Shown one piece after another: positions 1,138-62,985 of a stretch of 64,000 bases of DNA. The translations under genes were made by a program, and so were the position numbers. The notes below the pieces were generated by a model. That model was not told the origin of the DNA. It saw only the letters and a list, made by a program, of their open reading frames with translations, and did no database searches. Each line of letters opens with the position of its first letter. The stretch's first letter is position 1. This DNA comes from Protonemura montana. Lineage: Eukaryota; Arthropoda; Insecta; Plecoptera; Nemouridae. The stretch lies in contig OX387610.1 of the NCBI GenBank assembly GCA_947568835.1, forward strand, positions 11,017,001 to 11,081,000, in the 5' to 3' direction.

Positions 1138-2195
1138 GTATAATCTTTCAAGAAAAGACCAGCAATAAAATGTGTTGTGAACATATTTGAAATCTTATTT
1201 AAATTGCAAACGCTTGCAAAAAAAAGTAAGTGAAAAAAGTATCGTTAATTTTTTTTTGTGTTATGTAATGCAATTTTCATTCAGTTTTTTGTCTCAGGTC
1301 AACACCACCTATGAGCCAAATTTGGTACTAATCTAATATTACTCCAAACGTAGAAGGCGGTGGTTTGTATGTGCAAGGCGGTGATTTAAAACACAATTTT
1401 TCATTTTTTTTTTAAATAAATGTCAAACATTGAAAGCACTTGGCTTCAATTGAAATGTAAATATGCTTTTTACTGAAAGGTGTTCACGACTGGGATTGTG
1501 TTACCAGAAAGGGTATTTGAGTTGCTTTCAAATTGCTGGGTTCGTGGGCCAAATGTTTCCCTAATTTTTGGTTGATGACGCGATTGCCTGACAGCCAGCC
1601 AGTAAAGATGACGAGAAATATCAAGTTTATTTAATCTTCTATTTAATCTTCGGAAGAAAATTGGTTGGTTTTCGAACAGATATTATCTCGATTAAAATGA
1701 TTCGTCGGAATGATAGATTGGTTTTCTAAAGGCTATATCACTGTTAAGTTTTATTTATTTTTTAATCTCTTACAGAAAACAACATAGGCTTACTTAACTT
1801 AGCTGGATTTTCTAAATACCTTCGTTCTGAAAAGAAAAACATAGTTATAGAGTTTTTTTTTCAGAGTAAACAAATAACAGCACGCTTTTGACTAAAGCTT
1901 TGATAAATATATTTATTTTTAGTTTTACTAACTTCTGTTAAAAGCTTAAGTCTCAAAAGAATTGATTTTTTTAATCTATTCACCCGTTTTCCATGAGCGC
2001 CCCTGAACGCAGCCCGCAGAGCAAACTCAGTAACACACTTTGGCAAAAAATGTTTTTTAAATTACAAATTGAAATCAAAAGCGCATTTGACATCTTGACA
2101 GTAATCATTGTTTGACCCAGGCAACTTAATATTACTAAAAACACGAGACTTAATTTCACCCACTGGTCTTTCCTTGTGAACCCAATTGATATGAG
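1138..2195. other. unassigned AT-rich DNA
   Basis: No coding exon, RNA or intact repeat is recognisable. Near 1190-1212 there is a short stretch with GCAAACGCTTGCAA, which matches the tail of the tRNA-derived SINE seen at 50565 and 63585. Near 1997 there is a short GC-rich run (CCCCTGAACGCAGCCCGC) that recurs, diverged, at about 61112 and 61247. Confidence 0.4.
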
Positions 2196-2683
2196 TTTAA
2201 CGACGCACTGTTTTGACATGTGGCCATGTGGCACTGGTCTAATGGCGTCGGTGAATGAGTGGATTATGATGAGGATGATGATGAACCTAACCTAGCCCAG
2301 AAGGGAGGAGGGGAAACCCGGTGTCGGCACTTAGCCTACCCCTGTCAAATGGCACCAAGGGGTTCACCGGCAGCTCACACAGCAGGATTCCTCCACAAAT
2401 CCATGCTGTCGAGAGGTTGATATGCAAGGCGAGTGAAGTCGCTGTACTAACTTTCATCTCACCAACCTCTCTCCCGAACAGAACTGGTCATGTGTATGAT
2501 GGTCATCCATCCAATACCTGACTTAGCGCAGTGTTGCTTAACTTTCATCCCTCCAACCTCTCTCCCGAACAGAACTGGTCATGTGTATGATGGTCACCCA
2601 TCCAATACCTGACTTAGCGCAGTGTTGTTTAACTTCGGTGATCTCACGATAACCAGTGTTTCCAACACGCCAAACCGTTCGGT
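2196..2683 (-). repeat. 5S-derived SINE, near full length with internal duplication
   Basis: On the minus strand it starts with the 5S-like head (GGCGTGTTGGAAACAC, then an AGATCACCGAAGTTAA-like run). It continues through the body (CATGGATTTGTGGAGGAATC) and ends with CAGTGCGTCGTTAAA. About 91 bp spanning the 3' half of the 5S head and the adjoining body is present twice (about 2451-2541 and 2542-2632). This makes the copy longer than the others and shows the head region starting to duplicate. Confidence 0.88.
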
Positions 2684-3967
2684 TTATTAACCCAAGAAGA
2701 ACTTTGCAAGGTAGAACCTCATTAAAGCTCACGTTAACTCAAGTCGTTTTCACCACGTCGATAATTTGCATCAAGGCTCGTTTCAACCTGTATTTTTCAA
2801 ACGCTATTCACGGTGATATTCATAAGTGCGATCAGATTTCACTTTGAATTTAAGAAGCCTCAACCGCCACGCGTTCCGCTCGCCTTACTTGACCGTGGTC
2901 TTGATACCGTACGTTATTTCACTAAGCGTCAATTATTTTTTTCTCTGATAACTTTAAAAAATGCTGAAAATCTAAGCCAGAAGCAAAGTGGAGACATTTT
3001 GTCCATTTTATTCGGATTTTAATTGCGAACGCAAGCAATGGGCAGAGTATTAAATTATAAAGAACTCATCAAGCGTAAAAAGATGTGTACCTAAAAAGGC
3101 GTTCAAACCCCGGTTTTACAACTTTGGTGGGTGTGGCTTTCACCATTTCTAAATGGACATGGCCTTTCTGAGAGGAAATCGGTACATTGGGTAGACAATT
3201 TTGAGTGGGTGTTTAAGAGGATAATTTATTCTAAAACTAATTTTATAGGGCAGTAAAAAAAGATATAATAAAATATCTTTTAATGCCTTTATAAGAATTT
3301 TATTTGTTGAAGTGTAAAAGTGTATGCACTCTGTTTTTTTGTATGCTTGTAAAGTTTTGCATAATGCTGTCATGCAAGGTTTGTGCGTTGATGCAGTAAT
3401 CGCGAAAAACGACTGAAACCACAAAACAATTACCGTTTTAATTATAGAAAAAACAAGTGCAAGTCACTGCAAGGCCACGTCAAAGTACCATGCAACCCTG
3501 TTGACAAGGTTTTCATATCTTAATTAAGTCTAAGACAAAAAGTAACTTTATAATTAATCAATTCAAAATAATTCCTACATTTTATATAAAGATGCAAAGC
3601 AAAACCGCACAGTGAAGACAAAAAAAAATGCTGTCTTGAGTATCGAAAGTAGAAATAACACGACATAGAGACTTATGTAGGTATTCTTAAAATCATGTAT
3701 CACAAACATCTTCGGTTTGTTAAAAAGCGATAAGCAAAACAGGCAAGTAATAAGAATGGCGCGAAACGATGTGTGGTTCAGGCCTCCCAAAAACAGAGGC
3801 ACGAACTGCGCAAACATGTAGACGTCATACAAAACACACGAGATCCACTGGTCGCGATAATGTTACTGCAGTATTGGCTGCCAGGCGAAAAGGTTGGCTG
3901 ATTATGAAACCACTTCTAAAGGTGACAGGCTCTAAGAAGTAATTAAGTGTCGCATGGTTGTGAAGTG
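2684..3967. other. unassigned DNA with a decayed tRNA-SINE
   Basis: Mostly featureless AT-rich sequence. At 3018-3116, read on the minus strand, there is a decayed copy of the tRNA-derived SINE. Its B-box-like GGGGTTTGAACGCC is near 3099-3113, and the tail resembling GCATTGCAAGCG lies near 3018-3045. No gene is supported. Confidence 0.4.
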
Positions 3968-4341
3968 GTCAACGATGCACTGTTTTGTCAAAGGGCCATG
4001 CGGCACTGGTCTAATAGCGTTGGTGAATGAGTGGGTGATGATGAGGACGATGATGATATACCGTACGTCATCTAGAAGAGATGAGGGGAAACCCAATGCT
4101 GGCACGTAGTCTACTCCTATCGAAGACCACCAAGAGGACCATTAGCTTAACGTCGCTTTCGAAGAACGGTACAAAGCAAACAACAGGATTTCTCCACAAA
4201 TTCATGCTGTCGAGAAGTTGATAAGCAAATGAAGTTGATGTACTTTTTCAATCCCGTCAATCTCTTACCTGAACTAAACTGACCGTGCATATGTTGGTCA
4301 CCCATCGAAAACCTGTCCTAAAGCAGTGTTACTTAACTTCT
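3968..4341 (-). repeat. 5S-derived SINE body feeding a head array
   Basis: This minus-strand SINE copy is complete from its 3' terminus (near 3968) through the body to the 5S-like head, which begins near 4300. Where other copies end after one head, this one continues without a break into the tandem 92-bp array. Body and tail are diverged (for example GGCACGTAGTCTACTCC and a deleted repeat of GATGATGAT), so the copy is old. Confidence 0.85.
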
Positions 4342-5230
4342 GTGATCTCACGAGGACAGGTGTTTCCAACACGCCAAACCGTTTGGTGGTCACATAACCA
4401 ATACTTGACACAGCTTAGTGCTGCTTAACTTCAACAGGCCAAACCTTTCAGTGGTCACATAAGCAATACTTGATCTAGCTTAGTGCTGCTTAACTGTGGT
4501 GATCTCACGAGGACAGGTGTTTCCAACACGCCAAACCGTTCGGTAGTCACATAACCAATACTTGACACAGCTTAGTGCTGCTTAACTTCGGTGATCTCAC
4601 GAGGACAGGTGTTTCCAACACGCCAAACCGTTTGGTGGTCACATAACCAATACTTGACACAGCTTAGTGCTGCTTAACTTCGGTGATCTCACGAGGACAG
4701 GTGTTTCCAACACGCCAAACCGTTTGGTGGTCACATAACCAATACTTGACACAGCTTAGTGCTGCTTAACTTCAACAGGCCAAACCTTTCAGTGGTCACA
4801 TAAGCAATACTTGATCTAGCTTAGTGCTGCTTAACTGTGGTGATCTCACGAGGACAGGTGTTTCCAACACGCCAAACCGTTCGGTAGTCACATAACCAAT
4901 ACTTGACACAGCTTAGTGCTGCTTAACTTCGGTGATCTCACGAGGACAGGTGTTTCCAACACGCCAAACCGTTTGGTGGTCACATAACCAATACTTGACA
5001 CAGCTTAGTGCTGCTTAACTGTGGTGATCTCACGAGGACAGGTGTTTACAACACGCCAAACCGTTCGGTAGTCACATAACCAATACTTGACACAGCTTAG
5101 TGCTGCTTAACTGTGGTGATCTCACGAGGACAGGTGTTTACAACACGCCAAACCGTTCGGTAGTCACATAACCAATACTTGACACAGCTTAGTGCTGCTT
5201 AACTTCGGTGAACCTCACGAGGACAGATGT
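4342..5230 (-). repeat. 92-bp satellite made of tandem 5S-derived SINE heads
   Basis: Units begin with GTGATCTCACGAGGACAG at 4342, 4499, 4591, 4683, 4840, 4932, 5024, 5116 and, with a changed start, 5208. Spacing is 92 bp, except for two 157-bp steps, each holding a 92-mer plus a 65-bp deleted unit. On the minus strand each full unit is the SINE head. It retains sequence resembling the 5S rRNA internal promoter (A-box region CACCGAAGTTAAGCAGCAC-like and a C-box region like GGTATTGGTTATGTGACC). Many units are nearly identical, which implies recent expansion or conversion. Confidence 0.93.
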
Positions 5231-6561
5231 TTCTATTACATCTTATCTCTTAAATAAACGTGAACGTGATCCCGATGTCTTCTCGAGGTCAACTTCTTGA
5301 TTGCTGACCCAGTAAGCCTGAGTTTACAATGACGTCTTCATCCGCACAAACTTAATCATCTTCACACGGTTCGCACTAATTTCCTGTCGCTAGGCAGCAA
5401 CTCACTTACACGAGTCGATTGAAACGCCCTCCCTCTGCGTATAAATGCAATTACCTCCCCCTTGCCACCCTGCCGCGACAACTTCGCGAAGCTAGGCGAA
5501 GAAATTCGTTAGCTTGGTTACGCTGCGTAGAGCAGTCACCAAAGAATTGAGGTCAGGGTAACTTTAGTTATCTCAGAGACATTTTCATGTAACTTAATTT
5601 TCAAAATATGCTACACTTTTTGCAATACATCTTTTTATCTCTTCTCAAAAGACACTTTTGCCAGCGTTTTTGCGTAGGTATTTGCTTACATAACAATGAA
5701 GTGTCTTTGTCAATTACCAAAATTGAAAATTTCAACAGGAGTGAATATGTAGGTACGCCTAGTTTTTGTTCCTCTGTTTGTCACCTACTACATCAAAGAA
5801 TAACTCAGCCTAGCAAGTGTGTCGTTAAGAAATGGGAATGAAGAAAGACTTCATTTCTACCTTTTTTTTCTCATTGAATTGTCTAACTGAGAGGCAAAAC
5901 AACGCTGAGACGTTTGTTTGTTGAACTTGGGAACTTCTACCCACGGCTGTGAACCTCACCGCCTCGATGACTCTGAGAAGGTGATTCTGTCTTCTCCTGA
6001 GGCTCTTTCTGTTAACCAAGCGGAAGATAGCTGACAAGCGCCCTGTCTACTGCCACCCTTTCACCCTTACAAATACACCCGGCCATTTTGAATATATATT
6101 CCCTGTCCTTGGTGGAGGTCCAAGTTATATTAATTAGGTTGAGCTTAGGAGGAGGTTTATTACCAAATATCTTGTAGACAAACTACGCTCAAGCGCAAGA
6201 CAAATAAAAATGTTTTAAAGTAAACTCAAGACGCGATTGTTAAAAATACCAAAGAGATCAAATTGAACAACAACACATCCCAACGATAGTATGGTCAGTT
6301 AGGTACTTTTTTTATGAACACAACTTCTGTTTCAAATGAGCAATATTGGACGAAGATTACCCAATCAAATGAACAAAAGTGTGTGTTAATTTAAAAAAAA
6401 ATGTACAAAATATGAAACTTAAACCAAAATAAGTGAAAGAATGTATGTATTTAAAACGGTTCTCTCAGAACTTGCAATGATGTACTGATGAACTTGCAAA
6501 ACTTAAAGACACCTCCGCCTCCAAGACAGTTAAAATCTAACTTTTGTCTCTGAATTTACAG
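5231..6561. other. unassigned DNA upstream of the membrane-protein exon
   Basis: It contains a moderately GC-rich patch at 5330-5560 with a TATA-like box, and another at 5930-6080 of unknown meaning. If the plus-strand membrane-protein gene has a 5' untranslated exon, it could lie here, because the exon beginning at 6562 has a good splice acceptor and so is not first. No protein-coding exon could be supported. Confidence 0.3.
5440..5447 (+). promoter_or_regulatory. possible TATA box
   Basis: GCGTATAAATGC sits in the only locally GC-rich stretch upstream of the membrane-protein exon. A potential splice donor (CAGGGTAACT, near 5566) lies about 120 bp downstream, so an untranslated first exon of about 100 bp is conceivable. 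TATA-like strings are common, so this is a weak call. Confidence 0.2.
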
Positions 6562-6569
6562 GCGTCACC

Positions 6570-9500
6570 ATGATCGGTGCCATGCCTGCCGTGGCAGTTC
6601 GCCACGAGCGACGCAAGCAAGAAAAGCGCAAGCGTCCAAGCCAACTCTACCTGGGGGGGCTGGTGCTGCGACAGTCCCCCCCTTCGAGGGCCACTTCACC
6701 CACGCCCAGTCCTCTGCAGTCACCAGCCGAGCGCTACGACAACCACCAGGAGTACTACCTCTTCGGGAAGGTGCGTGAGTCCATGCGTGGGGTCTGGTAT
6801 GGAGCCAAGGTTGAAACCGATGCCAAGAACCGGTCACGGCTAAGCCTTATTATTTTCACACACTGCGTTAGCGCTGTCCCTATGGCTCTGGTATTTTGGC
6901 TGTCAATTCGTATTAGGCTGATAATGAAGCTATGCTGGACTGGCAGGGATTCGAGAGTGAACCCGGTTCTAGCACGTAACTTGTTCCTGGCCATCAGCAC
7001 CAAGGACCGGCCACCACTTAGCCTTGTCCCTTTGACACACTGTGTTGGCTGCTTCTGTCCAACATCACCAAGGACCGGCCACCGCCTAGCCTTGTCTCTT
7101 TGACACACTGTGTTGGCTGCTCCTGTCCAACAGCACCAAGGACCAGCCACAGCTTAGCCTTGTCACTTTGACACACTGTGTTGGCTGCTCCTGTCCAACA
7201 GCACCAAGGACTGGCCAACGCTTAGCCTTGTCCCTTTGAAACACTGTGTTGGCTGCTCCAGTCCAACAGCACCAAGGACCGGCCACCGCTTAGCCTTGTC
7301 ACTTTGACACACTGTGCTGGCTGCTCCTATCCAACAGCACCAAAGACCGGCCACCGCTTTGCCTTGTCCCTTTGACACACTGTGTTGGCTGCTTCTGTCC
7401 AACAGCACCAAGGGCCGGCCACCGCTTAGCTTTGTCCCTTTGACACACTGTGTTGGCTGCTCCTGTCCAACAGCACCAAGGACCGGCCACCGCTTAGCCT
7501 TGTCACTTTGACACACTGTGCTGGCTGCTCCTATCCAACAGCACCAAGGACCGGCCACCGCTTTGCCTTGTCCCTTTGACACACTGTGTTGGCTGCTTCT
7601 GTCCAACAGCACCAAGGGCCGGCCACCGCTTAGCTTTGTCCCTTTGACACACTGTGTTGGCTGCTCCTGTCCAACAGCACCAAGGACCGGCCACCGCTTT
7701 GCCTTGTCCCTTTGACACACTGTGTTGGCTGCTTCTGTCCAACAGCACCAAGGGCCGGCCACCGCTTAGCTTTGTCCCTTTGACACACTGTGTTGGCTGC
7801 TCCTGTCCAACAGCACCAAGGACCGGCCACCGCTTTGCCTTGTCCCTTTGACACACTGTGTTGGCTGCTTCTGTCCAACAGCACCAAGGGCCGGCCACCG
7901 CTTAGCTTTGTCCCTTTGACACACTGTGTTGGCGTTGTCCCCGTGGCACTGGTCTATCGGCTGCTCCTGATAAACCCAAACGTATTTTGAAACCCCTTTG
8001 TATTCGCCACAGCCGTTATTGCTGGGTTGGTATAAACTATTCCGTCAACAAACAAAAGCTCTTTTGGTGCACGTTTTCCGGAAAATCCACTCTAAAAAAA
8101 TATATATATGTATTGAATCTGAATTAAAAGAGAGGATTTTCAAAATGGTTGGCTCAGGTTTTTTTTTTGTTATGTTAAGTTTTGTAGTGTTAACAGATTT
8201 AACACATTTGGGATCCACAGCTGCTACGAAATCTGTTTTTTTTTCCTGAAAAACTCCGGGAAAACGTCTTGAACAGACTCTTTTACAACGCGTGCAACTA
8301 TACGACCAAATACTACGACCCACGACTACGACTACGACTACGACTATAACGACCCAAGTCCCACTCTAATATGTTTCCAGGAGCATGGCACTGGTATCAG
8401 TGACCTCTCCCAATGACAGACACCTTCACAGTTGAAGCATATCCCTTGCCAAGCGGGCATTTCAATCCTGTCCTACGGGATTTTGTCAGGAAGACGATGT
8501 TGTGATTTGAATGTAACCAACAAGTGATTCCCGTGAAATATAATAAGGATAGAGATATTTAGTCGAAGGGGTAAAGCTTGCATTTAGGAACGTGGAACCA
8601 TTCAGAACTCGTTAACTGACTAGGTTTTAATTTACCTTGATTTAAAAAAAACATCCTTGCAAGCCACTTTGAGTTGAGCATTGTATCGTAGGTTTTGGTA
8701 GCTACAGAGAGACACAAGTTATTTATGTTCAGTAAAGAATTTTAATGCCTAATAACTAACCCACCAGCAACTATTCCTCTAGCATCAACCCGTCGGATAA
8801 TAATAACGATCGCATATCGATTACATGTATGAGTCGCTAGTATTGGAGCACTTTGAAAAGGCAATTAAACCAGTTTGTCGGTATTGAAGTCCCAATACCA
8901 CATCCTGGGTTAATGTTCATATATTATTTGATGATTACTAGAAGTAAAGCGTAGCTTCTCTAAGTTTCTTCGCGGCTCTTTGTACCATTAAAAATAAAAT
9001 AATCTATCAGTTTCTAACAAGCATAATATCCCTCAATGCTGTCAGCAATCGTAATAATCTGTACAATAAATGTCACCGTAAACACACCACTAACAGAGCG
9101 ATAAATGTCAACTTTGCCATACAGATTTCCGAAAACCTAGCTACAACAAAAATTGTAATGCACAACAACATAAATATAAAGTTCGACCTGCCCAAACTTT
9201 AGTTTACGGCAACATTCTTTCCGTTAGCAAGAGTCAAATGGACTCGCCTATTACAAACACGAATTTAGAAGTCACCGAATTAAAGTATCTTGAAGTTCTT
9301 GAAGTCAATTGAAGTCACCAACGTAATAGAATGACTTACCGCCCATACACCATGTTCTGAACGGAACAGAATTACTTAAGCATTATGCAATTTTAACATT
9401 ATCATTACGATATGTTTACGGCTATGATAATTGTAGAAGAGTCTTTGCAGGGGAAATATTACACAAACAAAACTCATTACAAAATAAAAACTAGTCCGGC

Positions 9501-14794: not shown

Positions 14795-14999
14795 AAGGAG
14801 CGGACACCTGTATGTTCTTAATCCGGAGACATTTTAATTTCGGTCTTAAACATTACATATACTTCTGAGTTTCTATGGTAGAGTCATAACTTCTCCAGCA
14901 TATAGGGGACGGCGAGTGTCCGCTCCTTTGTGTAGAGCGAAACAAGCACCCTGTCACGGAATGTCCAGCACAGAGGCGACGGCGAGTGTCCGCTCCTTT
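14795..14999 (+). repeat. inverted and direct repeats in the probable 3' UTR
   Basis: AAAGGAGCGGACAC (14795-14808) is followed by its perfect reverse complement GTGTCCGCTCCTTT twice, at 14916-14929 and 14986-14999. The latter two sit in 70-bp tandem copies. In RNA the first arm could pair with either of the two others. The segment lies between the stop codon at 14725 and an AATAAA at 15420. Confidence 0.7.
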
Positions 15000-15419
15000 G
15001 CGAAGAGCGAAACAAGCACCCTGTCACAAATGTCCAGCACATAGGCGACGGGGGTCGAAGGCGATAAAGCAGTTTGCTACTGTGGCTGTATTAAGGGCGT
15101 GCCCTCTGGAAACGCGTGGTTTAATGAGGTCGCCATCTAGTGACTTTGTTGGGTAATTAAATCCGAGGCAGCGAGATTAACGACCTTTATTTTATGTGAG
15201 TAATGATGGCGATGGCGATAATAGCCGGGGGCTCTAATGATTACGCTAATGGGCGGAAGTGGAGTTTGCTGTGGTTTTCCTCAGAGAGGTGCGCCATTGA
15301 GGATCTTTCTGATGTGCGATATCATGTGTCAAAAAGATTGAAAAGTACGATGAAAAGCGTGAAAAGGCTGCTGGGGCTAGCTTGGTATTCTTGTCATCGT
15401 AGTACGCCGTCGCTTGAAG

Positions 15420-19884: not shown

Positions 19885-22800
19885 CTGAAAGGTAGAGCAT
19901 GAATAAATAGTGTCACAGGGACAGCGCCAACAATGTGGGTCAAAGGGACAAGGCTAAGCGGTGGCCGGTCCTTGGTGCTGTTGGACAGGAGCAGCCAACA
20001 CAGTGTGTCAAAGTGACAAGGCTAAGCGGTGGCCGGTCCTTGGTGCTGTTGGACAGGAGCAGCCAACACAGTGTGTCAGTGTGTCAAAGGGACAAGGCTA
20101 AGCGGTGGCCGGTCCTTGGTGCTGTTGGACAGGAGCAGCCAACACAGTGTGTCAAAGTGACAAGGCTAAGCGGTGGCTGGTCCTTGGTGCTGTTTGACAG
20201 GAGCAGCCAACACAGTGTGTCAGTGTGTCAAAGGGACAAGGCTAAGCGGTGGCCGGTCCTTGTTGCTGTTGGACAGGAGCAGCCAACACAGTGTGTCAAA
20301 GGGACAAGGCTAAGCGGTGGCCGGTCCTTGGTGCTGTTGGACAGGAGCAGCCAACACAGTGTGTCAAAGGGACAAGGCTAAGCGGTGGCCGGTCCTTGTT
20401 GCTGTTGGACAGGAGCAGCCAACACAGTGTGTCAAAGTGACAAGGCTAAGCGGTGACCGAACCCTTGGTGCCGTTGGACAGGAGCAGCCAACACAGTGTG
20501 TCAAAGGGACAAGGCTCAGCGGTGACCGAACCCTTGGTGCCGTTGGACAGGAGCAGCCAACACAGTGTGTCAAAGGGACAAGGCTCAGCGGTGACCGAAC
20601 CCTTGATGCCGTTGGACAGGAGCAGGCTGCGTGCCGGCACCGGGTTCACCTTCGCACCCACCTCATGCTCGGCATACACAGCAATTGGCTCGGCTCCCGC
20701 CCATGCGCTGTCTGCTCCTGACGCTGAGCCGGTCCAGCCGTCTCCTCCATGACCGGCCGAGCCGACACTGGTGACGCCGTGGTTCACGCGGCTGCCGTAG
20801 TCAGCGGTAGCTGACTTGCCGACCGAGCCACCGTGGCCGCCAGCACCGGAAGCCTGGGACAGAATGAGTGGGGCGATGAGGTGGATACAAAGTTTTCTAA
20901 ATCTACTCGGTGTTGAAAAATATTGTATGACTCGACCTAACTGACAGAAATATGTAATTGTACTTCATTTGTTTGGAAGTTCCCATGGCAATTGTTTTAA
21001 CTACTACTTCAGCTAGGAGTTGAGAGGTCGTTTGAAGGTGACGTGTTTTGCTTTTGTTCGTGTGCGGTTGATATATATTCGATTTAGGGAAATCGCCATT
21101 TTGGTCAGCTTTAATGTATTTAAGTCATTCATTCATTGATCTTTCCGCTCAAATGCTAGTACAGGCATAAGTAGCATATCTGAAATTAACATTCAACAAA
21201 AACGCACTAACGAGGTTTTTATATTAGGTTAAAAATCATGTGTTCTACATTGTTTAGGTCTTAATGGGCCTGTTATCTTCGGATCGATGAACCTTATTGG
21301 CTGTAGAACGATTTAACGAACTTCTTAAACAGCTCCCAAAACACTTGTATAATTTGGTAATTCTTACATTATTTGTGCTAGTCTTAGGCCAGCTAAAGTA
21401 GGTCTTCCCTGTGACCTAACCAAGACGTTGGGTTAAGTCTCAGTACTGATATTACGATGTTATTGCAAAATATACCGACAGATCAACTACTCTACCGTCT
21501 TATTTTATTATACCGTTACTAAACCGGTATTTGAAATTGATTTTCGCTCAAAAAGCCTTCACTCAAAAGAGATGGTCGCAATCTTCATCGGTCCACCATA
21601 TACAGCAAGTTCGTTTGCTGTCCAGAAAGCTGAACATTAGCGCTAGGACTCTGACTTAAAGTTTAAACTTTAGGTTTTCACATATTTGTAGATGTACTTT
21701 TGATAAATCCAAAAGTACACATTATCGCATTTTGTTTCCAAGCTAACACCCGTCTCAAAAACAAACCCTAAGCATCTGTCATGTACCACTGCGACGTGAT
21801 CTTACCTGGGGAATGGAGTTGGTGACAGTAGCGACGAAACCTCCCTTGCCGGCGACATAAGAGACTGTGCGTACGTTGCCAGTGGGCTCCACCAAGCTGT
21901 ACTGTCCGGTGACGTCATCGCCTTCACGTGACTCTCGTTGAGCGTGAGTGTCACCGGTGACGGGATCGGTGACGCCATAGGTGAACGCGTAGCTCGGGGT
22001 GGCCTAGGGACAGATCGAGAGATGTTACTAAGGGATTGTTGAGATGTTTTTTTAAGTTACTGGTGTTTAACAACGCGCTTTTTTGACAATTGGGCATGTG
22101 GCAAAGGTACAATGGCGTCGGTTAATAAGATGATGATGATTAAATGATGACCTAGCCTTGTTTAGAAGAGAGAAGAATTGATGTTAGTACAGCAACTTCA
22201 CTCGCCTTGCTCATCAACCTCTCTACAGCATGGATTTGTGGAGGAATCCTGTGTATTTTGCCTTGTACCATCCTTTAGAGGGGATGATAAGCCATTCATC
22301 CCATTGGTGTTATTCAACAGGAGTAGGCTAGGTGCCGGCACCGGATTTCCCTTCCTATTTTCTTGGCTAGGTAAGATTCATTATCATTCTCACAATCATT
22401 CACTCATTCACCGACGCCATTAGACCAGTGCGTCATTAAACATCACAAATGTATCAACAGTTTTTTCTAGTAGTTCTTAACCAATGTTCTCCGTGTCAGT
22501 ACACATAGAAGAGCTTGAGGATACAGCTGCTTTTTGTCATAAGTTGTAGGCTGTTAAATTTTTTTATAGTTTTAACATTTGAGAAGTCAGGTTTTTGAGA
22601 AGTCTGTAACCACACCCCTGGCTCACCACATAGTCGACGGTGTATCCAGCATCCTTGCCTCCAGCTCCAGCGCCTGCTCCAGTCCATCCTCCGGCATTAG
22701 CTCCAGCCCATCCTCCAGCTCCCTTGTCTTCATTGAAGGTCACCACCTCCTTGGCGTGGCCGGCGACGGGTCCTCGGAACGATACGTAAGAGTTGGCCTC

Positions 22801-24135: not shown

Positions 24136-24376
24136 GTGAACCCGGTGCCGGCACGCAGCCTGCTTCTGTCCAACGGCACCAAGGGTTCGGTCACCGCTTA
24201 GCCTTGTCACTTTGACACACTGTGTTGGCTGCTCCTGTCCAACGGCACCAAGGGTTCGGTCACCGCTTAGCCTTGTCACTTTGACACACTGTGTTGGCTG
24301 CTCCTGTCCATAGCACCAAGGGTTCGGTCACCGCTGAGCCTTGTCACTTTGACACACTGTGTTGGCTGCTCGTCCA
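24136..24376 (-). repeat. 68-bp satellite, short array
   Basis: Begins GTGAACCCGGTGCCGGCACG, then three anchors of CACCAAGGGTTCGGTCACCG spaced about 68 and 65 bp apart. It belongs to the same inverted duplication as the exon shard beside it and most resembles the units nearest exon 5 (GGTTCGGTCACCG type). Confidence 0.88.
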
Positions 24377-25044
24377 ACTACTTACTACTTACTACTAGGT
24401 ACACCCCGCGAAAAATCGCGAAAACTCGCGAAAAATCAACAATACTATACTTACACTTGATCACATAGTCAACACATACCAGACAACGTTTACCAAGAGG
24501 CACCCTGAACGTACGGCACAAGATAAATTGCTCCACCAAAGGCTTGCGAACCCTTTCTAAACTACACTTCAATACCACTAATATTCCACATTTCACTCAC
24601 CCATGGAATGCTACATATTCACTCTACTATACAAACTTTCTATCACATAGTACACACGTACTAAACTACGTTGCCCACTAGCCACACAACACATGCGGCT
24701 CTGTCATTTCTTTAAATCACAAATATTACTCCACCGAAGACTTGCGCCCAATATCACACTACTCTTCAATTACACTTACGATACACTATATCCTATTATC
24801 GTACTACACACCTTTACGGGACAACGATACTTAGTACATCTTAATTTCAATATCACTACGCATACACCCAACACGCGAATCTTCTGCATTTATTAATACC
24901 TCAATTCCCTAATTTGAAGTTTGCTAAGGTTGTAATATAAGGTGTCGATGTCAAGTTGATGATGTGAAGTGTCTAAGGGTGTGTTCATTGAAAGTGTTCC
25001 GATAGATGCACTTACCCTTTGGGAAAGTGTAATGCTGGGTACAT
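24377..25044. other. unassigned DNA
   Basis: AT-rich sequence with scattered CACTAC/ACTACT runs. No exon or repeat with another copy was found. Confidence 0.35.
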
Positions 25045-35448: not shown

Positions 35449-35499
35449 CTGTCGACAGAACAGCAGGGGCGTTAAGCGTTAGGTTAGGTATATTTTGTG

Positions 35500-35600
35500 G
35501 CGTTTAACGACGCTCTGTTTTGACAACGGGTACTGTGGTATTGGTCTTGGAAACAATTATCAAGTGGATGATGATGAGGATTTTGATAATATTAAATAAC
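35500..35600 (-). repeat. 5S-derived SINE tail
   Basis: Minus-strand tail with CAGAGCGTCGTTAAACGCC at one end and CATCATCATCCACTTG-like repeats at the other. It lies just before the 92-bp array, as at 3968-4341, but the body between them is largely gone. Confidence 0.65.
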
Positions 35601-35670
35601 TTGTCACAGGAACTATGGTTGCACATTCGACTCTTGGCTTAGTGCAGCGATCTCGTGATCAATGACTTCG

Positions 35671-36085
35671 TTGATCTCACGAGGACCGATTTTTCCAACA
35701 CGCTAAACCGTTTGGTGGTCACCCATTTAATACCTGACTCAGCGCAGTGTTACTTAACTTCGGTGATCTCATGAGAACCGGTGTTTCCAACACGCCAAAC
35801 CGTTAAGAGGTTACCAATCCAATACCTGACTCAGCGCAGTGTTAGTTAACTTCGGTGATCTCATGAGAACCGGTGTTTCCAACACGCCAAACAGTTAAGA
35901 GGTTACCAATCCAATACCTGACTCAGCGCAGTGTTACTTAACTTCGGTGATCTCACGAGGACCGGTGTTTCCAACACACTATAAACCATTCGGTGGTCAC
36001 TCTTCAATAACTGAACGAGCGCAGTGTTGCGTAACCTTGGTAATTTCACAACAACCAGTGTTTCCAAAACGCCAAACCTTTCAGC
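35671..36085 (-). repeat. 92-bp satellite of 5S-derived SINE heads (second locus)
   Basis: GATCTCA anchors lie at 35671, 35763, 35855 and 35947, exactly 92 bp apart, with a decayed fifth unit to about 36085. Units 2 and 3 share a private AAGAGGTTACCAATCC variant, so they derive from one another. Confidence 0.92.
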
Positions 36086-36089
36086 TTCC

Positions 36090-38710
36090 CAATCAAATAC
36101 ATTTTGACTTGTACAATAGCATGAAATCTTCCTTAAAATGAACTCTAAATATAATCCAGTCAGTTGAGAACTATATCTAAAACAAGCTCCCTAAGAAGAA
36201 TTTGGTCCACGGGCATTGTCACGACCTCAGGCAACAACACCAACCAACCATCACCATGGCAACGGTAACCAAACGACGGATCCCCTTGAAGCTCTTTGGT
36301 TCGCCACTCGTAAAATAGATGGCGCTGTCTACGGCCACCGTAGACGTGAATACACATTTCCACCGCGACCTTATTCCCATACAGCCCTCTGGTACCATGG
36401 TCTTCATCCACAGCCCTCTAGAGACTCAGAAAAGCTTTGAATCGTGTCCGCACAAAACTGTTTCTGCTCCGTCGTTTTTAAGAATGGGTATCTAGTACCT
36501 ATAGGTCTGGTAACATTTATCTTGTTAAGAGCTTTGGGGACACTGATATTTTAGACTCAGAAGGCCGTGAGGATGGGCGGTCATGCTTGTGAGAGAAATT
36601 TGAATCCACTTTATTGGTTTCCGTGATAACTAAAGCTTCGCGGACGTAATTTGAAGTGCTTTGAACATGAGCGTATTTTCTTTTCTAGTAAGTATATATT
36701 TTTTCTTTGATAAATATGTAAAGAGCTGAAGGACTGAATACATTAATTCCCCCTGACACTCTCACCACCATCCTCTTGACAACATACTTTTTTTGGTTTT
36801 TTATCTCCAGTAAGTATATTTTTTTTAACTTTACAAATTTTGCCACAGAAATAATTTCTGCATATTCCAATCTAAAAATGACACTGAAATTTTTGACTAA
36901 GATTTTAATGGACATTTTTCGTAAACCTTGATTCGTTTAATTGCAAAACGTTCCGAGTCCAGAAATTTCCAAAGCGATCAGCAAATCTAAATCGGTCAAA
37001 CTGTTTGTTCAGTAGAAAACAAACAAAATACATAAACAAATTTCGTATTTTTCCTTCCGGGAAGTCAAATTGGACACTTCGCTCGCTATGCTCATCCCAG
37101 TAAGCTGCTGATATTTTGTGCTATACTTTCATTGTTGCGGTACCTATATTTTATCCTATACAATACAAAATGTTGCCGTGGTTTCCCAAAGCGAAGCTTC
37201 TAGAAACATAATGTTATGCGAGTACTACAATTCGCGAACACAAAGAGAAAATATGAGTTTTCCGTGTGCACACATATCAGAGACTTTATTTTTTGGTCCG
37301 TGTATTCACATTCATTTTCCTCTAGAACTGTCAGTTCACTCGAAGAACATGGCTTCCTGGCTTCCGCAGTACGGGTCGAACAAAACGAACGAAATTGGCA
37401 AGCGCAAATTTCATAGGAAAAGTAAAATGAACATTGCATTTTTCGCACGGTTCCACAAATAAGAAATATACCTCGTTTTTCATCAAAGGACATCAAGGTT
37501 TTTAATAAAAATGTAAAATTTACACTAATTGGACAAGACCGAGTGCTCCACACATAAATATGGCTAAAAAGAAGATCAAAACTCATGTTTTGGCTGCCGC
37601 TTTTAGTGAAAACCCCTACATTTAGCTTGCTTTTGTCGTGTTGACTTACTTTTGTTGTCTCTATGGTCTCGGTCTTGGTTAAACTTGGTATTTTTGACAC
37701 AAAAACTTACATGACTACTGGACTACTACTCGTCATAATTACGGCTACATAATTACAGGCAAACCGCAAACCCACGCGAAACTAGAACAGCTATCTGAGA
37801 CATAGTCTTAGTTATTTTTGTAAACGTTAAGTGCATTTTGTGAAACAAATTATGATTGAGGAAAGCGTTGAAGAAATTGGGCACGAAGGTATACAGCATA
37901 CAAATCGAAAAGAATTCCTACTTACGGTATTACAGTCTTTAGACTCGTGTTTACTTTATCTAACTTAAGAACTCTTTACTAGACATTCAAAAACCTAGTT
38001 TTCAAAAGTATTTTTCACGAATTTTGACGTAAAATATAACAAGCTGTGCTACCATATATACCACCGAATACATGCCTCATTGTTAGCCAAAAAAAAAAAT
38101 TAGGTCTTAAACTGATTAACAGCTAATTGCTTAAAATCCTTTACCTAATATTCGCTAAAATTACTTTATAGATCAAGCTTTGTCAGAGGTGTATCCAAAA
38201 CCGGCGTTTCTGTCACCTGTCAATGACATCTGTCAATGTCACCTGTCAATGTCACTTGACAATCTATCTCTTCCACCAGGCCGTGCTTAAGCTATGTTTG
38301 CCTTTAAGAGTTGGCGCGGAAAGGGCCCGGGCTGAGGGGGGATGCTCGAAATGAACAAGAAAATTGCAAATTCTTGTCTGGCAAGCCGTTAGCTCAGGCA
38401 GGCACCGCAACGCTCCAAGCAGCCGAGATGATTAGATGCCTGAACAAATTCCAGTCACGTGAAATAATGTCACAGACATTCCAAAATGTTTCAAATTATT
38501 GTCAGACAGCAGCGCCGTAACAGCCTCGTTTTGAAACTAAGCATGACAAAGCATTTAATATCGTGCAATAAGGAAATTTACCTTCTCTAGTTTTCCATAG
38601 CAAATTTGGGTTGAACAAACTTTAAGAAACCTTAGGATACCTTGAAGATACCTTGGGTATTTAGAGCGCATTCTGTGCATTCTGGGTGAGCACCGGGGGC
38701 GATATGAGTG
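36090..38710. other. unassigned DNA
   Basis: Contains an 8-bp-arm palindrome GTCTACGGCCACCGTAGAC (36327-36345) in a GC-richer patch (36200-36430), and a diverged arm of the fold-back family near 37936-38015. Several mid-length open frames (for example on the minus strand at 37200-37700) show no domain or splice support. Confidence 0.35.
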
Positions 38711-39112
38711 TTCTACTGGGCATGTGACTCTGCCCCAGTGCAACTTTCACGTGTTCGACTGGGCATGTGACTCTGCTCCAGTGCAACTTTCACGTGTTCG
38801 ACTGGGCATGTGACTCTGCCCCAGTGCAACTTTCACGTGTTCGACTGGGCATGTGACTCTGCCCCAGTGCAACTTTCACGTGTTCGACTGGGCATGTGAC
38901 TCTGCCCCAGTACAACTTTCACGTGTTCGACTGGGCATGTGACTCTGCCCCAGTGCAACTTTCACGTGTTCGACTGGGTATGTGACTCTGCCCCAGTGCA
39001 ACTTTCACGTGTTCGACTGGTCATGTGACTCTGTCCCAGTGCAACTTTCACGTGTTCGACTGGGCGTGTGACTCTGTCCCAGTGCAACTTTCACATGTTC
39101 GACTGGTAGAGT
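38711..39112. repeat. 43-bp tandem array with an E-box in most units
   Basis: About nine units with a 43-bp period. Each has ACTGGGCATGTGACTCTG, then CCCCAGTGCAAC, then TTTCACGTGTTCG. Every unit except the last retains the palindrome CACGTG, and ACTGGG is mirrored by CCCAGT within the unit. A diverged piece with CACGTGTTCGGGTGGG lies near 39206. Confidence 0.93.
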
Positions 39113-40377: not shown

Positions 40378-41060
40378 CCTGCAGTCTAGCCTGTGCGAGA
40401 AGATACTAGAACAAGGACTGTCCCCTGCATTGCTACAGTCTAGCCCGTGAGAGAAGATACCAGCACAAGGACCGTCTCCCTGCATTGCTACAGTCTAGCC
40501 TGTAAGAGAAGATACCAGCACAATGACTGTTTCTCCTGCATTGCTACAGTCTAGCCCGTGCGAAAAGATACCAGCACAAGGACAGTCCCCTGCATTGCTA
40601 CAGTCGAGCCCGTGAGAGAAGATACCAGCACAAGGACCGTCTCCCTGCATTGCTACAGTCTAGCCCATGCGAGAAGATACCAGCACAAGGACTGTTTCTC
40701 CAGCATTGCTACAGTCTAGCCCGTGCGAGAAGATACCAGCACAAGGACTGTTTCTCCTGCACTGCTACAGTCTAGCCCGAAAGAGAATACGCCAGCACAA
40801 GGACTGTCCCCTGCATTGCTACAGTCTAGCCCGAAAGAGAATACGCCAGCACAAGTTCTGTCCCCTGCATTGCTACAGTCTAGCCTGTAAGAGAAGATAC
40901 CAGCACAAGAACTGTCCCCTGCATTGCTACAGTCTAGCCCGTGGGAGAAGATACCAGCACAAGGACTGTCCCCTGCATTGCTACAGTCGAGCCCGTGAGA
41001 GAAGATACCAGCACAAGGACTGTCCCCTGCATTGCTACAGTCTAGCCCGTGAGAGAAGAA
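40378..41060. repeat. 54-bp tandem array
   Basis: About twelve units with the motifs GCTACAGTCTAGCCCGTGAG, AGAAGATACCAGCACAAGG and ACTGTCCCCTGCATT. Most units are 54 bp; some carry CTGTTTCTCCTGCAT and are longer. Because 54 is 18 codons, one plus-strand frame stays open across the right half (repeating CPLHCYSLARERRYQH), which I take as a by-product of the repeat. Confidence 0.93.
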
Positions 41061-43196: not shown

Positions 43197-43623
43197 ACCG
43201 AACGGTTCGGCGTGTTGGAAACACCGGTTCTCAGGAGATCACCGAAGTTAAGCAACACTACGCTGAGTCAGGTATTGGATGGGTGACCATCATACACATG
43301 ACCAGTTCTGTTCGGGAGAGAGGTTGGAGGTATGAAAGTTCGTACAGCAACTTCACTCGCCTTGCTTATCAACCTTTCGACAGCATCGATTTGTGGAGGA
43401 ATCCTGCTGTTCGCGTTGTACCGTCCTTCGGAAGGGACGTTAAGCCGGTGGTCCCCTTGGTGCTCTTCGATAGTAGTAGGCTACGTGCCGGCACCGGGTT
43501 TCCCCTCCTCCCTTCTAGACGAGATAAGGTTCATAATCATCCGCTCATTCACCGACGCCATTAGACCAGTGCCGCATGGCCAGATGTCAAAACAGTGCGT
43601 CGTTAAACACTAATAATCAATCA
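43197..43623 (+). repeat. 5S-derived SINE, full length (reference copy)
   Basis: The best complete copy. The head (43203-43295) has GGCGTGTTGGAAACACCGG, then GATCACCGAAGTTAAGCAAC and GGTATTGGATGGGTGACCAT, aligned with 5S rRNA from about base 28 to 95. The body has GACCAGTTCTGTTCGGGAG, TTGTGGAGGAATCCTG, GTACCGTCCTTCGGAAGG and GTGCCGGCACCGGG. The tail has CATTCACCGACGCCATTAG, TGTCAAAACAGTGCGTCG and a short AATCAATCA end. No coding capacity; expected to be Pol III-transcribed and moved by a LINE in trans. Confidence 0.92.
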
Positions 43624-53373: not shown

Positions 53374-53810
53374 TGAACGGTTTGGCGTATTTGAAACACC
53401 GGTTCACGTGAGATCACCGAAGTTAAGCAACACGCTGAGTCAGGTATTGAATGGGTGACCATCAAACACATGACCAGTTCTGTTCGGGAGAGGTTGTAGG
53501 GATGAAATTTAATAACATAACTTCATTCGCTTTGGTTATCATTCTCTCGACAGCATGGATTTGTGAAGGAATCCTGTTGTTCGAGTTGTACCGTCCTTCG
53601 GAAGGGACGATAAGCAGGTGTTCCACAATTGGTGCTCTTCGACAGGAGTAGGCTACGTGCCACCACCGGGTTTCCCCTCCTCCTTTCTAGGCTATGTTAG
53701 GTTCATCATCATCCTCATCATCATCCACTCATTCACCGACGCCATAAGACCAGTGCCGCAGGGCCAGTTGTCAAAACAGTGCGTAGTTAAACATCACAAA
53801 GCAATCAATC
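53374..53810 (+). repeat. 5S-derived SINE, full length
   Basis: Head GGTTTGGCGTATTTGAAAC, then GAAGTTAAGCAACACGC and GGTATTGAATGGGTGACC. The body and tail are complete to AGTGCGTAGTTAAACATC. Small deletions occur in the head (lost ACTGC) and near GGGAGAGG. Confidence 0.92.
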
Positions 53811-62218: not shown

Positions 62219-62985
62219 GAACGGTTTGGCGTGTGGTTCTATAAGGATCACCGAAGTTTAACAACACTGTGCTGGGCCAGGTATTGGATAGGTGACCACC
62301 GAATGGTTTGGCGTGTTGGAAACACCGGTCCTCGTGAGATCACCGAAGTTTAACAACACTGAGCTGAGCCAGGTATTGGATATGTGACCACCGAATGGTT
62401 TGGCGTGTTGGAAACACCGGTCCTCGTGAGATCACCGAAGTTTAACAACACTGAGCTGAGCCAGGTATTGGATATGTGACCACCGAATGGTTTGGCAAGT
62501 TGGAAACACCGGTCCTCGTGAGATCACCGAAGTTTAACAACACTGAGCTGAGCCAGGTATTGGATATGTGACCACCGAATGGTTTGGCGTGTTGGAAACA
62601 CCGGTCCTCGTGAGATCACCGAAGTTTAACAACACTGTGCTGGGCCAGGTATTGGATATGTGACCACCGAATGGTTTGGCGTGTTGGAAACACCGGTCCT
62701 CGTGAGATCACCGAAGTTTAGCAACACTGAGCTAAGCCAGGTATTGGATGAGTGACCACCAAATGGTTTGGCGTGTTGGAAAGACCGGTCGTCGTGAGAT
62801 CATCGAAGTTTAGCAACACTGAGCTAGGTCAGGCATTGGATGGGTGACCATCGAATGGTTTGGCGTGTTAGAAAAACCGGTTCTCGTGAGATCACCGAAG
62901 TTTAGCAACACTGCGCTGGGTCAGGTATTGGATGGGTGACCACCGAACGGTTTGGCGTATTGGAAACACCGGTTCTCGTGAATCA
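62219..62985 (+). repeat. 92-bp satellite of 5S-derived SINE heads (third locus)
   Basis: About eight units. GTGACCACC anchors lie at 62292, 62384, 62476 and onward at 92 bp. Each has GGTTTGGCGTGTTGGAAACA, GATCACCGAAGTTTA and GAGCCAGGTATTGG. Middle units share the private variants TTTAACAACACTGAGCTGAG and GGATATGTGACC. Edge units keep the SINE-like GCGCTGGGTCAGGTATTGG. The last head is cut off after TTCTCGTGAATC; no SINE body or tail follows. Confidence 0.93.

Follow-up and report, generated by a model that had tools for sequence, protein, structure and literature searches.

The window considered here is the whole stretch of 64,000 nucleotides that was analysed (C13:11017001-11081000), at 11.0 Mb of a contig that measures 17.8 Mb. 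Its minus strand carries, from 5233 to 3958, a 5S-derived SINE whose head is present eleven times, and these heads run in register into the body and 3′ end of the element. The eleven consist of one partial head, seven heads of 92 bp, two of 65 bp and one that is joined to the body. An earlier note on this DNA had described an array of 92-bp heads that passes unbroken into a SINE body and tail on the minus strand. This structure, a head array in register with a SINE body, is confirmed by the segment annotation and by the in-register join. The extent and the unit size given in the note had to be amended, as the 3′ end lies near 3958 rather than 3968 and the units are not all of 92 bp, although both array and SINE are real. 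The window holds three multi-head SINEs in all (at 4, 2.2 and 35.5 kb), together with one array that has no body (at 62.2 kb). The features are as follows.

2195..2683, minus strand: second multi-head SINE, with body, 3′ end and two heads (nt 48-138) in the 91-bp register; candidate target-site duplication (TSD) TTGGGTT (p 0.09)
3958..4295, minus strand: SINE middle, body and 3′ end of the eleven-head element, 85.2% to the SINE reference
4296..4386, minus strand: last head, continuous with the middle and body of the SINE; its 5′ half resembles the array, and most changes in its promoter half are its own
4308..4311, minus strand: TTTT, a possible Pol III terminator ahead of the body; the sole four-T run on the sense strand of 5300-3901
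4387..5160, minus strand: nine tandem heads, seven of 92 bp and two of 65 bp, with a 341-bp higher-order repeat (Tandem Repeats Finder, unit comparison)
5161..5233, minus strand: partial first head, from about head nt 22-24; upstream flank without clear continuation (by eye)
35494..36082, minus strand: third multi-head SINE, with four to five 92-bp-type heads, a body that is diverged and shortened (by eye) and the SINE 3′ end
43197..43610, plus strand: ordinary single-head copy of the same SINE, used for comparison
53375..53800, plus strand: ordinary single-head copy with the TSD GCACCGTTATT (segment annotation, TSD test)
62219..62985, plus strand: body-less array of about eight heads of the 92-bp type; six of seven measured units in a locus-specific clade

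The standard plan of this SINE, as seen in the single-head copies of the window, is a head (nt 1-92), a middle (nt 93-141), a body, a CGTTAAAC end and an AAATAAT-like tail, with a length of about 440 nt. In the eleven-head element, segment annotation of the minus strand finds the head segments A1 and A2 repeated and then directly the body segments B1-B3 (5206-3958). Complete heads start at 5160, 5068, 4976, 4884, 4792, 4727, 4635, 4543, 4451 and 4386, the last being attached to the body; those at 4792 and 4451 are the 65-bp units, which by eye are the same head minus an internal deletion. The periods detected by Tandem Repeats Finder are 92 bp (within 4432-5233) and 341 bp (4325-5112), and the higher-order copies of the latter length match at 336/341 positions. 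The body is about 15% diverged from the SINE reference (271 matches, 47 mismatches and 13 gap columns). A target-site duplication was sought around the element (3958-5233) and none was found; this copy is outside the set that was eligible for the swapped-flank test described below.

The earlier note had also envisaged multiple Pol III start sites along the array, and for this locus that is doubtful. The SINE head presumably has box A, IE and box C at the same positions as 5S genes do. In the units of the array, box C has changed from GGATGGG to GGTTATG, and the sense-strand TTTT at 4311-4308, which is absent from the SINE reference, sits between array and body. Because of the damaged box C and of this T run ahead of the body, many working Pol III starts are unlikely, and judging by these motifs transcription of the copy by Pol III through to its tail is also unlikely. 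Units of other arrays are close to the reference, for instance 96-99% at L040 and 93-99% at L042, values that refer to whole units and not to single boxes.

Source of the heads and growth of the array

The head of this SINE has the trait that characterizes SINE3-type elements, namely derivation from 5S rRNA with an internal promoter region. The Rfam model of 5S rRNA (RF00001) scores 53.2 bits with a single-head copy and up to 117.5 bits with the true 5S genes of the same genome. Five stretches of the array match the model; the last head reaches 41.1 bits and is the sole one above the gathering score of 38, and the remaining four score 29.3, 29.2, 24.2 and 21.0 bits. Nucleotides 17-92 of the SINE head agree with the genome's own 5S genes at 67/77 positions (two genes compared). 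The array consensus fits the SINE head at 80/92 positions versus 59/78 for the genome's own 5S gene, and the local alignment of a unit to the 5S gene starts only at unit nt 17. The proposal that the 92-bp unit is the 5S-derived head of a SINE is thus upheld; the units do not resemble genuine 5S rDNA more than the SINE head, and their derivation straight from 5S rDNA is rejected. True 5S genes, with a sequence that looks arthropod-like, recur at the start of C11 (70-105743) in sets of three, two on one strand and one on the opposite, every ~9.5 kb, and look as if they were part of a larger repeated gene cluster.

The units at the window locus resemble each other far more than they resemble units elsewhere. 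On average, 66% of derived changes are common to units within the locus versus 4.6% between loci, the units have common changes that are absent from every other locus compared, and seven of the eight units measured form one pure clade. Of 40 scored candidates from the rest of the genome, none exceeded a 90% match to the two array units compared. An exact recount sorts the seven 92-bp units into three types, with 4-8 changes between types. The two units of type a (5160, 5068) differ at nt 92 only; in type b, 4976 and 4635 are identical and 4727 differs at nt 92 only; and the two of type c (4884, 4543) are identical. The units are thus near-identical and the higher-order copies match at 336/341, whereas the body is at 85.2%, so that the latest growth is much younger than the SINE itself. 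Consequently, the idea of a satellite growing from the head of a SINE holds for this locus, and such comparisons give good support to growth that was local and recent, at least in part.

Which head served as the template is less clear. The changes common to all seven 92-bp units number two in nt 1-47 and seven in nt 48-92. The last head has nt 30 and nt 33 in common with all seven units and nt 4 with the three units of type b. Six changes in its nt 48-92 are private to it, nt 69 is common to it and type c only, and none of the seven changes that all units have in this part is present. Because these are missing, the promoter half of the array probably came from another, upstream head. Either the element already possessed two or more heads and this half expanded from an upstream one, or exchange introduced it. 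In the array (4387-5233), the 5′ halves are near canonical and the promoter halves more changed, for which conversion by a younger copy is one possibility. Thus, the earlier view that the junction reveals the source of the satellite stands as regards the SINE head and the in-register join, but the exact template head is not cleanly shown, as the last head differs in nt 48-92.

Multi-head copies across the genome

The genome searched comprises 258 Mb in 34 contigs, and heads are multiplied in it in two registers. The 92-bp register consists of nt 1-92, joined at GTGACC/ACCGAACGG, and the 91-bp register of nt 48-138, joined across a 6-nt AAGTTA match. With at most two mismatches allowed, there are 2,058 head-head junctions of the 92-bp register genome-wide and 25,684 of the 91-bp register, about twelve times as many; a control with reversed patterns gave 0 for both junction types genome-wide. 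By exact anchors, the body is preceded by one unit in 801 elements, by two in 198 and by three in 150. The 198 two-unit places include units of the 92-bp type with like spacing (3 among 100 listed), and a few mixed arrays fit more than one spacing pattern in these counts. Arrays of the 92-bp register that run into the SINE middle number 43, also by exact anchors and genome-wide. In a random 200 kb (20 stretches of 10 kb, out of 80 drawn), two of eleven head-bearing loci were multi-head, one of these with a body. A genome search for further SINEs with more than one head, as the earlier note had proposed, therefore yields many, and the window locus is not singular among the multi-head SINEs of this genome.

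Arrays of the 92-bp type continue into the SINE middle or body at 6 of 20 loci (L029, L032, L034, L045, L047 and L048), all 20 having been picked for their likeness to the window array, which biases their state at nt 33. Many other 92-bp arrays have no body. In the 91-bp register, which also occurs at L002, L005, L007 and 2195-2683, at least 17 units run into a body at L004. More than half of the derived changes are common to units at the window locus, at L048 and in the body-less array of the window (w62219), and less at the other 21 of 24 arrays. L048 and w62219 have locus-specific unit clades, as does the window locus, and unit types alternate at L048 and L045 as if a two-head block had been amplified. 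Dispersal of the arrays within a common larger element, or by segmental duplication, is unsupported: up to 600 bp on each side of 25 arrays, the flanks have in common one tandem satellite (L022 and L040) and three matches of 31-102 bp.

At L032 (982-1696), a four-head array of the 92-bp type, with the SINE middle and the start of the body, is adjoined by an inverted stretch that resembles a 68-bp satellite of the window, which is considered at the end of this text.

Timing of head doubling and target-site duplications

Changes that precede a doubling are expected in both heads, and the 91-bp register offers enough two-head copies to count them. At 16 two-head loci, of which 13 were hand-chosen from the 100 listed of the 198 and three are L003, L028 and w2195, only 2 derived changes are common to both heads versus 50 that are unshared, nt 48 and nt 70 being left out of the count. 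A doubling time that is uniformly random after insertion predicts 13.5 shared changes versus the 2 observed (P = 0.0007). Doubling in the first fifth of the life of a copy fits the data, and doubling in the first half barely does so (P = 0.047, weakly excluded). An earlier count of 12 loci without masking gave 3 shared changes versus 1.8 expected by chance (p = 0.24). From the ratio of 2 to 50, it follows that doubling in this register was probably early, at or near insertion.

Position 70 adds information on heritability. It differs between the two heads at 5 of the 16 loci, where later G/A mutation would produce 0.28 such loci (P about 1e-5) and all substitutions together 0.56 (P 3e-4); among 21 one-head copies, there are 10 with G and 10 with A. 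L049, L053, L054 and L060, which lie on four chromosomes, have the same order, G then A. As read from these alignments, the pattern points more to a heritable two-head form than to doubling anew at each insertion, and exchange with other copies could also produce discordance at this position.

Target-site duplications were scored against the 95% level obtained with swapped flanks, which 12 of all 29 eligible copies exceed. Multi-head copies of the 91-bp register account for 7 of these (out of 13 eligible), single-head copies for 4 (out of 11) and copies of the 92-bp register for 1 (out of 5), namely L048, with six heads and the duplication AGATTGTCATA. The 13 copies are 12 of the 16 two-head loci plus L002, the other four loci having been dropped because their 5′ head end is missing or a flank is short; 6 of the 13 have no significant duplication in this test. 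The duplication at L051 is 20 bp long, and the matches at L055 and L058 are AT-rich and repetitive. The mobility of multi-head copies, for which the earlier note had looked to intact bodies and target-site duplications, is thus suggested for the 91-bp register. The window locus belongs to the 92-bp register.

Since the window locus has no duplication and one in five eligible copies of its register does, mobility of the 92-bp register rests on signals of ancestry. In 92-bp arrays that enter the SINE middle, 24 of 35 last heads have C at nt 33, versus 2 of 21 one-head copies (p = 1.9e-5). These 35 heads were read out of the 43 places found genome-wide, which were not chosen by likeness to the window array; of the 21 one-head copies, four are multi-head in the 91-bp register, and both cases with C lie beside arrays. 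The variant, together with the lack of common flanks, suggests common descent and movement of 92-bp arrays. At L046-L048, nt 33 is T throughout, which points to separate origins.

Origin of the multi-head forms and known parallels

In the explanation that we consider likely, the window locus represents an old copy, with a multiplied head, of an abundant SINE that is 5S-headed; multi-head forms are perhaps mobile, and some loci grow into satellites. In a first step, the SINE of ~440 nt would insert with target-site duplications, such as are seen in other copies, presumably by means of a LINE reverse transcriptase. Heads are then multiplied in the two registers, nt 1-92 and nt 48-138, and the early doubling in the 91-bp two-head copies studied suggests that multi-head forms may retrotranspose. 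As the canonical head has no TTTT, Pol III could transcribe several heads together with the body into a single RNA, which might be copied whole. At some loci, the window included, the head block would subsequently grow in place into higher-order arrays, probably by unequal exchange or slippage, and the body would decay or be lost so that a satellite remains. The more specific version has, in our estimate, an even chance of being correct: a mobile form of the SINE with a variable number of complete Pol III heads, whose multi-head RNA is reverse-transcribed whole and seeds satellites of two registers, which then grow in place.

The main alternative is that each multi-head copy is a local product of unequal exchange or slippage in a single-head SINE already present at the site, mostly where recombination is frequent near chromosome ends, and that none ever transposes. 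On C1, all 20 listed two-head copies are near the ends versus 32 of 57 listed single-head copies (p = 0.00015), as expected of arrays born by recombination; here, the ends are the first 3 Mb and the last 5.5 Mb, bounds that were fixed after viewing the list. The locus-specific unit clades at the window locus, w62219 and L048 agree with local origin, as do the SINE-derived satellites of squamates, which are subtelomeric and for which unequal recombination is favoured for the first duplication (PMC10702118). However, young single-head copies crowd at the ends of C1 too: the 57 listed single-head copies have a mean of 2.25 differences near the ends versus 4.48 inside (p = 0.002), and among young copies alone the numbers near the ends and inside are 15 and 0 for two heads versus 17 and 6 for one (p = 0.06). 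Interior positions occur on other contigs among the two- and three-head copies listed (C3 at 20.4 Mb, C5 at 13.9 Mb, C2 at 10.9 and 12.0 Mb), and those listed on C11 include places off the ends. Doubling that never precedes insertion also fits poorly with 2 shared versus 50 unshared changes at 16 loci, with the discordance at nt 70, and with an nt-33 variant that is common to arrays without common flanks. Local origin of all copies is possible, and we regard it as doubtful.

A second alternative, that template jumping by the reverse transcriptase multiplies heads at each insertion as independent, non-heritable events, would account for doubling near insertion time, for the constant junction at a 6-nt match and for the same state of nt 48 at 12 of 12 loci. 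It is an unlikely one, as one RNA template should yield identical heads, yet the two heads are unlike at nt 70 in 5 of 16 loci, and the same G-A order recurs at four loci on four chromosomes. That a separate 92-bp satellite from 5S rDNA was joined to the SINE by chance at the window locus is very improbable, even though body-less arrays exist and the last head of the array is a mosaic, given that the units are nearer to the SINE head (80/92) than to real 5S (59/78, alignment from nt 17) and that the in-register join also occurs at six other loci.

Among the closest parallels to multiplication of the SINE's own head, the reading preferred here, are the satellites that derive from SINEs in squamate reptiles (sSat; Vassetzky et al. 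2023, PMC10702118), a class also cited in a 2025 review (PMC12692304). They are tandem repeats of part of a SINE, which in snakes includes promoter box B, with a longer end unit that reaches a SINE terminus and with alternating unit types in long loci; they prefer subtelomeric positions, and registers differ between taxa (PMC10702118). The authors infer a library of short tandem duplications that were amplified later (PMC10702118). The window locus has several of these traits, namely a unit that is a defined part of the SINE, a longer terminal unit that extends to the SINE end, and homogeneity within the locus. In contrast, Squam SINEs are tRNA-headed and belong to vertebrates, and no true dimeric forms of them are reported (PMC10702118). 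In the SINE studied here, the head is 5S-derived, one unit covers the 5S promoter region completely, and insertion may occur in the two-head state.

Other elements are similar in single respects. SINE3 has a head with a 5S-derived promoter region, box A, IE and box C; repeated heads go unmentioned in the pertinent parts of PMC10886601, whereas in the present SINE the head is repeated. SVA and LAVA are mobile non-autonomous non-LTR elements with an internal tandem array of variable number, which is remodelled at the DNA level by a process driven by microhomology, but their repeats are GC-rich, of 30-50 bp, and not a repeated Pol III promoter head (PMC4432496). Dimeric or multimeric SINEs such as Alu and Dip (PMC10702118) and Sbg9 (PMC9191728) likewise have more than one promoter unit per element; they join whole SINE units, whereas the SINE studied repeats part of one head, up to many times, on one body. 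Multi-head SINEs are frequent in this genome, and the known kinds of element include SINE-derived satellites, dimeric SINEs and VNTR composite retrotransposons. The suggestion of the earlier note, that a SINE with many heads would be new in kind if transcribed, is weakened accordingly. The literature searched, mostly at the level of titles and with thin coverage of subscription journals, contained no description of tandem 5S SINE heads.

How satellites begin is an open question, and the stages of this SINE bear on it. Copies with one head, two, three, many with a body and many without a body lie side by side in one genome, and their sequences hold evidence on when some of the multiplication steps occurred. 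More broadly, this SINE family has multi-head forms that are abundant, perhaps mobile, and appear to feed satellites. If multi-head copies do move, one retrotransposon makes and spreads the seeds of satellites, and how many promoters an element carries turns into a trait that can be tested.

Other tandem repeats of the window were also compared with the SINE. Arrays of 61, 43, 54 and 70 bp (1-927, 38708-39106, 40382-41059 and 14894-15051, respectively) score 13-20, under the maximum obtained with shuffled versions of the 68-bp satellite. This satellite occurs at 6985-7933 (minus strand), 19926-20625 (plus strand) and 24160-24378 (minus strand), and it matches the conserved core of the SINE with a score of 44 versus a maximum of 28 in 300 shuffles. 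By eye, its downstream flanks continue into SINE-like sequence. On this evidence, a SINE seems to have given rise to this satellite as well, which would be the third of its kind; the source may be a second family with a common core.
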